Below, piece by piece: positions 18,599-30,413 of a stretch of DNA of 45,862 nucleotides (positions are counted from its first letter, which is position 1; each line of letters opens with the position of its first letter). A program made the translations under genes and the position numbers. Where the stretch lies: positions 1 through 45,862 of the forward strand of contig JANWIZ010000036.1 in the NCBI GenBank assembly GCA_025449635.1, given 5' to 3'. The stretch comes from Patescibacteria group bacterium. GTDB lineage: Bacteria > Patescibacteriota > Microgenomatia > Woykebacterales > RBG-16-39-9b. A model generated the notes under the pieces. It saw only the letters and a list, made by a program, of their open reading frames with translations. It searched no databases and was not told the origin of the DNA.

Positions 18599-18620
18599 AT
18601 AACATCCTCGGCTTTTTCTT
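18589..18620 (+). terminator. Rho-independent terminator of the nuclease gene
   Basis: AGCCGAG...CTCGGCT followed by TTTTCTTT. Confidence 0.85.
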
Positions 18621-18648
18621 TGCAAAAAAAGTACTCCGTTTGTATAAT
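18620..18648 (+). promoter_or_regulatory. Sigma70-type promoter giving a probably leaderless HD-domain mRNA
   Basis: TTGCAA (18620-18625) - 17 nt - TATAAT (18643-18648), ATG at 18659. Confidence 0.7.
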
Positions 18649-18658
18649 CGCTGCACCA

Positions 18659-19228
18659 ATGTCAATTTTTAATTATTTGCTCAACCGCAACCTTGCTCAT
18701 GTTCGCCGCTTTAACAATCGCCCGATGACATTCGGTGAGTCAGTTGCCGAACACTCCTACTACGTAGCTCACTTTGTCCAATTGATCTGCTTCCTTCTGG
18801 AAAAAAAGAAAATAAAAATAGATTCAAAAAAAACGATTGCTATGGCTTTGATTCACGACAGCGAGGAAGGTTTTTCTGGTGATATCCTCAACCCTTTTAA
18901 ACATTTTAATAAAAAAATCGCCGACGCTATTCACGAGGTTAACAAAGAAACAATTCATTTGATGTTTGAGGATTTACCAAAAGACATTTCCGGTAACTTT
19001 ATTGGCTTGTGGCAGGAAGAGCAAAAACGAGAATCGATTGAAAGCCAAGTAGTCAAAGTGGCTGATAGTTTGTCTTTGATTTCAAAATGTTATGAAGAAA
19101 TTGAAGTGGGCAACCATTTTTTTCATGAAATTTACAAAAGAGAGCTTAAAAATCTCAAGAATCTCGATTATTCGTGGTGGAAAAAAATAAAATCCCAAAT
19201 CCTTAACAAAGCAGAGACCGTAATTTAA
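18659..19228 (+). CDS. HD-domain hydrolase (YfbR-like 5'-deoxynucleotidase family)
   Basis: SVAEHSYYVAHF, ALIHDSEEGFSGD, VKVADSL; start moved from the ORF-track 18620 to 18659. Confidence 0.8.
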   Translation: MSIFNYLLNRNLAHVRRFNNRPMTFGESVAEHSYYVAHFVQLICFLLEKKKIKIDSKKTIAMALIHDSEEGFSGDILNPFKHFNKKIADAIHEVNKETIHLMFEDLPKDISGNFIGLWQEEQKRESIESQVVKVADSLSLISKCYEEIEVGNHFFHEIYKRELKNLKNLDYSWWKKIKSQILNKAETVI

Positions 19229-19284: not shown

Positions 19285-19313
19285 TTGACAAAATCCTCTT
19301 CTCGGAGTAATAT
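19285..19313 (+). promoter_or_regulatory. Consensus-like promoter of ncRNA candidate 1
   Basis: TTGACA (19285-19290) - 17 nt - TAATAT (19308-19313). Confidence 0.85.
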
Positions 19314-19318
19314 GCTCG

Positions 19319-19654
19319 AGCACGTTTGATCTCGCAGGCAAATGATCAACACTAACAACTGGACGGGGAAGTCCTGCACAGGGAGAGATCGACATGACGT
19401 GTGACGCTGGCGGTGGAAGTGGCTGACCAACGCGGGTGAAGGGAAGTGAAAGCTTTCACCGCCAGCACCTTATGCCGGACTGCGAGGAAGCGCGCGAAGA
19501 GCGACTGAGACATTATCCCCCTCATGTTCTCGCAGCCCGGCACCAACTTGATAATTTCAATTGGGGAGGGGTGTTAGCGGTAGAAGACCAAAGTCATGGA
19601 AAACTGGGAAAGCTCATGACGATGGAGTACTCTTCTACCGCTTTATTTTTTTTC
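19319..19654 (+). ncRNA. Structured non-coding RNA candidate 1 (about 330 nt)
   Basis: Consensus-like promoter; several long stems (TTGATC/GATCAA, GCTGGCGGTGGAAG/CTTTCACCGCCAGC, GCCGGACTGCGAG/CTCGCAGCCCGGC, AGCGGTAGAAGA/TCTTCTACCGCT); ends in hairpin + TTTATTTTTTTT; no convincing ORF. Confidence 0.8.
19576..19654 (+). terminator. Terminal hairpin/terminator of ncRNA candidate 1
   Basis: 12-bp perfect stem AGCGGTAGAAGA (19576-19587)/TCTTCTACCGCT (19631-19642) with inner GTCATG/CATGAC, then U-rich tract. Confidence 0.8.
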
Positions 19655-20820
19655 AAGCAGCATAAGAGACGCTGGAATTACAGCGCTTTTGCCAAAACGT
19701 GCTTTCAGTTGATCGATTCGTTTTTCCAAACCCAATCTTTTTTCCCGAACTTCGTCAAATAGTGACGGTTGCACTGTTTCTCCAAACTGAGTCAGGCCGA
19801 TGCCTACCAAACGCAGTGGGGTAGAGCTATCCCACAACTCTTTTAACAAGATTTCCCCAAGATCATAAATTTCCTTAGTGATGTTTGTCGGTGTTTCCAA
19901 AACCCGCTGTCGACTGACAAACCGAAAATCTTTATACCGAATTGTCACATGAACTGTCCGACCAAAATACCCATGTTCTCGAGCTTCTTGCCCAACACTT
20001 TCGGTAAGTTTTCGTAGCATCGCTAGGATGAAAGCCTCGTCCGGATTGTCTTTATAAAAAGTTTCACTACGAGAAATAGATTTCACCTCAACTCGAGGAC
20101 TAAACCAAACATTGTCCACACCATTGGCAGCTTCCCAAAGATTGATGGCAAACTTGCCCCAAGCTTTGATTTTTTCATAATCAACTCTTGCCAACTCTCC
20201 CAATGTTCTGACTCCAAGACGCTGAAAATACTCTTCCATCTTCCGTCCAATACCAGGTAAATCACGCAGCGGTAGGGGAGCGAGAAAAGCTTTTTCTGTT
20301 CCCACAGGCACGTAAGTAAAACCATCCGGCTTGCGGAAGTCACTAGCAACTTTGGCAGCCACTTTGGTCGCAGCCAAACCGATCGAAGCGGTAATACCAA
20401 TTTCATTTTTAATGTCAGAGCGAATTTTCTCAGCTACGATTTTTAAGTCTGGGTAAAGAATTTCAGTGTTAGAAAAATCCAAGAAGGCTTCGTCAATGCC
20501 AACTTGCTCAACTCTAGGTGCGTAACGAGCAGCAATCTCCATCACTGCCTCTGAAGCTTCGATATACTCCGCAAAGTGCCCTCCAACAACGACTGCAGAG
20601 GGACAAAGTCTCAAGGCTTGATAAACTGGCATTCCGCTTTTACAACCAAAAGCTCTGGCTTCATAAGAAGCAGTTGCGATCACACCTCGGGGAACATTTT
20701 TCCCTTGAGGATTGACTCCACCAACCAAAACTGGTTTACCTTTCAACGTTGGGTCAAGCTTGATTTCAACAGCTGCAAAAAAACAGTCCATATCCAAATG
20801 CATCCAAGAAGAACGTAACA
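19643..20820 (-). CDS. dinB: DNA polymerase IV (Y-family)
   Basis: WMHLDMDCFFAAVEIK, SYEARAFGCKSGMP, VEQVGIDEAFLDFS; C-terminal VQPSLF beta-clamp binding motif. The ORF track extends to 20866; MLRSSWMHLDMD is the more likely start. Confidence 0.93.
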
Positions 20821-20881
20821 TACTATATAATAGCCGAAAGTTAACCGAAGATGTCAATTGGGACAAACTGTATCAGAAAAG

Positions 20882-23376: not shown

Positions 23377-23441
23377 ATTACTTTTATAACTATTATGAGT
23401 CAACCTATTGCTTTTTTAATTCCTTTAGTAAATAATTTTTA

Positions 23442-23732
23442 TGTAATCCTGTGTGAAAGAGCGTGAAGAAAGGAGACCGCGCACTTTTCCGATATATAAA
23501 GGCGGCCAGACTCCATCATGACCCCCTCTAGTATCGTGATTCGCACAAAACAGAGCAGAGCTGGACAACACGGGCGCACATTCCCAACCGGATTTTGCCG
23601 CCCACACAGGATTGCACGACAACCAGAGCCCGGAGATAGACTGTCGATCCGCCGACAGGTGAAAACGCCGCACCCCCCGCAGATTTTTCACGAGAGTAAC
23701 GAGAGGAGCACTCTTTACTCTTTTTCTATTTT
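23442..23732 (+). ncRNA. Structured non-coding RNA candidate 2 (about 290 nt)
   Basis: 14-bp helix TGTAATCCTGTGTG (23442-23455)/CACACAGGATTGCA (23603-23616), GGCGGC/GCCGCC, ATCATGA/TCGTGAT, CTGTCG/CGACAG, GTGAAAA/TTTTCAC, AGAGTAA/TTACTCT + U-rich tail; GC-rich relative to flanks; weak promoter TTGCTT-17-AATAAT just upstream. Confidence 0.7.
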
Positions 23733-23750
23733 CGGGCAACTTTTTTGAAT

Positions 23751-30006: not shown

Positions 30007-30125
30007 TCAATAACTCCAAACTATTTACCCTATAGAAATTATTTGTTATAATCTCACCCTAAAAGTAGCAAAGGAGGATTTTACAACTTAATAAAAACGG
30101 ACTAGTTCAAACAAGGAGAAGATCA

Positions 30126-30413
30126 GTGGAAATTTCAACTCTAAACACCCAAGAGGGAGACCGAAAGGTCACTCTCGACACCCGGAGCGTGAACGGTCGC
30201 AACACCGCCAAAGAAATGATCGAGAGTAAGCTCAAAGAGGGTGCAGCGCTCTTCATCAAGATCAACGGCGATGACTTTCGAGTCAAAGGCTACGACCCGA
30301 AGAAAGACGAGCTGATTGTGCGTCGCAACACAATAGTTGCTCGACAGCAAACGTTCCGTTACCCGGGTCACGAAGCGAAACTCACGATCGTTCCTCCCCG
30401 CGCCGGCGGCTAG
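30126..30413 (+). CDS. Small hypothetical protein
   Basis: 95-aa ORF, GTG start with GGAGA upstream, promoter-like TATAAT near 30050; codon usage GC-richer than neighbours. Confidence 0.6.
   Translation: MEISTLNTQEGDRKVTLDTRSVNGRNTAKEMIESKLKEGAALFIKINGDDFRVKGYDPKKDELIVRRNTIVARQQTFRYPGHEAKLTIVPPRAGG

Follow-up and report, generated by a model that had tools for sequence, protein, structure and literature searches.

The stretch of DNA analysed here (the window, 45,862 nt) raises the question of what occupies the 414 non-coding bases that separate the gene for a YfbR-like HD nucleotidase on the + strand from dinB on the - strand. The source genome (G000), from an uncultured, ultra-small bacterium, is 0.76 Mb in size and 83% complete. 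The preliminary description proposed a self-contained unit running from promoter to terminator in this interval, and both ends are indeed present around a strongly folded, non-coding stretch. Read along the window, the promoter is followed by a series of strong hairpins, a perfect 12-bp stem and a U-tract. The features of the locus are:

18620-19228, + strand: gene for a YfbR-like HD-domain 5'-nucleotidase (Pfam PF12917, 1.2e-34), upstream of the RNA
19285-19313, + strand: sigma-70-type promoter TTGACA-17-TAATAT (TTGACA at 19285-19290, TAATAT at 19308-19313)
19320-19652, + strand: predicted structured non-coding RNA (fold z -4.06, codon score, high G+C)
19320-19402, + strand: 5' domain, stem CACGTTTGATCTC / GAGATCGA..ACGTGTG around AAGTCCTGC
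19406-19466, + strand: hairpin GCTGGCGGTGGAAG ... CTTTCACCGCCAGC, from fold and pair probabilities
19472-19542, + strand: hairpin TGCCGGACTGCGAGG ... TTCTCGCAGCCCGGCA, from fold and pair probabilities
19576-19654, + strand: terminator-like perfect 12-bp stem, AGCGGTAGAAGA (19576-19587) / TCTTCTACCGCT (19631-19642), then the U-tract TTTATTTTTTTT
19643-20866, - strand: dinB, Y-family DNA polymerase IV (Pfam IMS 1.2e-49, IMS_C 8.2e-26), which converges on the RNA and anchors the conserved slot

The promoter sequence noted earlier was found again at 19285-19313. Sites of the form TTGACA-N17-TANNNT occur four times on both strands of the 45.9 kb, the one at 19285 included, and looser promoter-like sites, again including this one, occur seven times in 2.3 kb against 3.1 expected, so that the motif taken alone is modest evidence for a promoter. 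The predicted ends of the RNA were placed approximately 6-8 nt past the -10 box and within the U-tract, giving a length of about 335 nt. The strand was assigned from the promoter and the U-tract, since the reverse strand folds equally strongly (z = -4.25), as expected for hairpins. The stem at 19576-19642 is absent from the list of a terminator scan for short loops because its 43-nt apical part contains a hairpin of its own. The U-tract after this stem extends over the stop codon of dinB (19643-19645).

Folding of the predicted 338-nt transcript gave -126.8 kcal/mol (z = -4.06), a value that none of 100 shuffles reached, and the main helices had mean pair probabilities of 0.83-0.97. The strong stems reported from reading the sequence, including the perfect terminal stem with its U-rich tail, were thereby borne out. 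The G+C content was 0.57 over positions 19300-19499, as compared to 0.395 for the whole window, and the intergenic region that holds the RNA had the highest G+C content and the lowest energy per base among the ten intergenic regions of at least 120 nt in the window. Structured RNAs can be found as G+C-rich intergenic regions in A+T-rich genomes (PMC8632094). Codon scores for the frames in the RNA region ranged from -0.16 to -0.37, below those of all 21 genes (+0.01 to +0.33), and a Pfam search of the ORFs in this region gave no match, in agreement with the earlier view that no frame here is convincingly coding.

Equivalent loci in relatives were located by protein searches with both neighbours, dinB and the HD gene. 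The dinB orthologs were 64-72% identical to the window's dinB in protein comparison. The comparison of the slot comprised four sequences, of which one (L081) is cut by an N gap, and the collection contained one genome of the window's genus. The RNAs in the slots of relatives are:

L056:4871-5275, + strand: slot RNA of Candidatus Woykebacteria bacterium GWB1_45_5 (G002, also L080; same family as G000), about 415 nt, z -4.5
L058:about 5160-4174, - strand: slot RNA candidate of G004, about 1000 nt, z -11.1, by far the longest RNA in any of the slots
L081:6642-6225, - strand: slot RNA on contig MEZF01000089.1, at least 418 nt up to the N gap, z -6.0

All three slots are G+C-rich, non-coding, strongly folded and convergent with dinB, and their promoters read TTGACA-17-TA(A/T)A(A/T)T. 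Overlap between U-tract and dinB stop is seen in G000, G002 and G004; the corresponding part of L081 is the N gap. Searches of two of these RNAs, from G002 and G004, against Rfam gave no match, and the three RNAs recognised here are, as far as tested, absent from that database. The L081 contig is filed under a Bathyarchaeota genome (RBG_13_52_12) and carries a dinB of Woykebacteria type (68% identical) together with the HD gene; it is probably misbinned.

The RNAs of G002 and G004 are identical at 23 of 25 nt (E 2e-6) inside a 21-pair hairpin. All 21 pairs are kept in both sequences, four of them with two-sided compensatory changes, and pairing dropped from 100% to 57% or less when the partner strand was slid; a shuffle control gave 29/500 and has little power with two sequences. 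Judged by these sequences, the two RNAs are homologous. A covariance model of their 5' hairpin module (R1) was built, in which a GAAAGNNGAGA leader precedes a GTCCTG...CGGGAC helix; in both RNAs the leader possibly pairs with the tail. In L081, R1 gave a match on the expected strand and in the expected position (15.3 bits; E 0.0018 for a search of 466 bases, filters off). The sequence evidence that L081 carries the module is moderate, because a search over 30 kb with default filters did not list it. An 8-mer common to G002 and L081 (GGTTCGAT, T-loop-like) was dropped, as it is expected by chance. Across the 374 genomes of the class, R1 was found only in G002 and G004, plus a weak match in G006 at an unrelated-looking place. 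The latter (G006:C19, L076 30-860; 26.8 bits) is not beside dinB and lies upstream of an ORF of 55 aa that has a strong RBS; the G+C-rich stretch that follows contains repeated AAGGAGGTGA, the anti-SD complement.

The window's RNA resembles those of G002, G004 and L081 in its position and orientation relative to dinB, promoter, G+C richness and strong fold: it converges on the dinB 3' end, is preceded by TTGACA-17-TANNNT and runs with its U-tract over the dinB stop. In contrast to them, it does not carry the R1 module with GAAAGNNGAGA; the best scores of R1 were 2.9 bits or less and misplaced. It is also the shortest of the slot RNAs and is without the leader-tail pairing that is possible in G002 and G004. 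A second covariance model (R2), made from the two central hairpins of the window's RNA, found only that RNA in 40 genomes and gave no significant match in the relatives' slots. Words common to the window's RNA and the other slot RNAs were at chance level; AAGTCCTGC in the 5' domain is a 9-mer that it has in common with the G002 RNA. The stretch GCUGGCGGUG..CACCGCCAGC sits at a place comparable to that of the long P3 helix of the relatives, which starts near CC(C)A(G/C)YGGUG; the similarity is not significant, and the hairpin at 19406-19466 is a possible counterpart of P3. When the 3' ends were anchored on the U-tract, the similarity of G000 to G002 and to G004 was marginal (p about 0.01 each), and the 3'-end stems CUACCGC/GCGGUAG and CUGCCGG/CCGGCAG are two compensatory changes apart. 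Since the defining R1 module was tested and not found, we do not assign the window's RNA to the family formed by the RNAs of G002, G004 and L081. Homologs with covarying stems, which the preliminary description suggested collecting, were thus found only among the same-slot RNAs of relatives; for the window's RNA itself, neither BLAST over the 374 genomes of the class nor the model of its own hairpins in 40 genomes gave a convincing one, and the best class-wide BLAST matches (L019, L020), read individually, look like chance.

In the dinB tree, G000 groups with G004 (100/99), apart from G001 and the pair of G002 and L081, which suggests that the slot was probably already filled by an RNA in the common ancestor of G000 and G004, before the two parted. 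Descent from this ancestral slot RNA is the simplest and most likely reading of the sequences. We therefore favour, with a probability of roughly 0.6, the explanation that 19320-19652 is a stand-alone, orphan, trans-acting ncRNA, the heavily diverged occupant of a lineage-specific locus convergent with dinB. It would descend from an RNA gene convergent with dinB in an ancestor of Woykebacteria type and would have been diverged or rebuilt beyond sequence recognition. Occupancy of the slot by an RNA is not universal among the relatives, which weighs against this explanation: the place next to dinB is taken by xerD in G001 and by a 119-aa ORF in G006, and a protein search found no dinB match in G003 and G005.

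The silence of R1 on the window's RNA, the restriction of R2 to that RNA and the chance level of shared words would also be expected if a genus-specific ncRNA had replaced the family RNA or arisen anew in the slot, without descent from the RNAs of G002, G004 and L081. We consider such an unrelated origin unlikely, as the slot, orientation, promoter type and overlap with the dinB stop are identical, the family RNA is kept in the sister genome G004, and the 3' end shows weak similarity to those of G002 and G004.

The main functional rival to a trans-acting RNA is control of dinB in cis, whereby convergent transcripts from the consensus-like promoter would read past an imperfect terminator and, through collision or antisense pairing, reduce dinB expression. 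Such control explains why the U-tract and the dinB stop overlap tail to tail in G000, G002 and G004, but not the fold: neither antisense pairing nor collision would require an extensive, covarying multi-hairpin fold or structure of up to 1000 nt. Moreover, the RNA ends in a strong stem with a U-tract, and only about 12 nt are complementary to dinB. This makes cis control of dinB rather improbable.

We also considered a diverged housekeeping RNA (SRP RNA, tmRNA, RNase P RNA or 6S) that escapes the Rfam models. The Rfam search proposed with the preliminary description was carried out, and no covariance model matched the window's RNA at the gathering threshold or plausibly at E<=10; OLE, ROOL, GOLLD and the other Rfam 15 families were among those without a match. 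RNase P RNA (RF00010) was rejected on this basis and because a canonical copy with normal motifs lies at G000:C39:9266-9642, as the first reading of the locus, which had judged it unlike RNase P, would lead one to expect; the short look-alike stretches, such as GGAAGTCC, are incidental. Neither the covariance model of tmRNA (RF00023) nor its tRNA-like domain was recovered in the window's RNA. For SRP RNA (RF00169/RF01854) there was no covariance-model match, and the tip motif GGAAGG..AGCAG is absent here as in the other three slot RNAs (G002, G004 and L081). The 6S RNA has a fold that differs from the several hairpins seen here, which counts against this identity.

What speaks for a housekeeping RNA is that SRP RNA and, in G000, tmRNA were not detected elsewhere. 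RF00169 gave no match in any of the 10 genomes of the order and RF01854 none in the 40 genomes of the class (G000-G039), with control genomes positive and several of the searched class genomes complete; in this class SRP RNA is either lost or too diverged for the models. The relatives without a slot RNA are, however, likewise without SRP matches. No tmRNA was found in G000 (best 26.4 bits, tRNA-sized), whereas in 8 of the 10 order genomes a tmRNA scored above the cut-off and lay away from the dinB locus; that of G000 may just be missing from the 83%-complete assembly. A housekeeping identity is therefore largely refuted and, in our estimate, very improbable. Phage or plasmid origin was rejected as well, as BLAST of phages and plasmids gave no match. 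Pattern scans of viral contigs gave no matches for the window's RNA and three for the G002/G004 hairpin, none of which was confirmed by the covariance model.

An mRNA encoding a small protein or a leader peptide is likewise very improbable: a 108-codon frame (19436-19762, GTG at 19436) is open, but it has a codon score of -0.14, as compared to +0.01 to +0.33 for genes, is without a Pfam match and crosses the terminator into antisense dinB.

Under the preferred reading, that of a diverged, stand-alone RNA, the promoter and the U-tract would define a transcript of its own, which would probably be made constitutively and be stable. The multi-hairpin RNA would then act in trans as a folded molecule, alone or as a scaffold for protein. 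We infer trans action because the hairpins are stable, coding signal is absent and long folded RNAs occupy the same locus in other genera. The RNA would serve neither for coding nor for control of a downstream gene, only the tail of dinB lying downstream in cis; this fits the earlier remark that a riboswitch is unlikely where the RNA converges on dinB. More tentatively, at somewhat below even odds, the Woykebacteria RNAs that converge on dinB constitute a novel class of large, structured RNAs with a conserved 5' hairpin module and a body of about 335-1000 nt, of which the window's RNA would be the most reduced and fastest-evolving.

Like OLE, ROOL, GOLLD and the raiA motif RNAs (PMC12286853), the window's RNA is a predicted free-standing, highly structured bacterial RNA. 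It differs from them in having no Rfam match and a distribution known within one family-level lineage only. ROOL and GOLLD, the latter described as of unknown function (PMC12286853), occur in phages or tRNA islands; of such a context there is no sign here, the locus being chromosomal, beside dinB.

Two other places in the window deserve mention. A second G+C-rich, apparently non-coding stretch lies at 23440-23740 (intergenic z -5.95 on the + strand) and had no Rfam match at the gathering threshold. A probable small gene with G+C above its surroundings is located at 30119-30412 (GTG start, about 95 codons, VEISTLNTQEGDRKVTLDTRSVNGRN...).

Our literature searches returned no account of CPR (Patescibacteria) bacteria having structured RNAs of their own. 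The tail-to-tail dinB locus is a clean reference point from which to gather homologs and to track how fast a large RNA can change. That a long folded RNA is retained next to dinB in several genera, in genomes of about 1 Mb or smaller, suggests selection for a function which these cells need.
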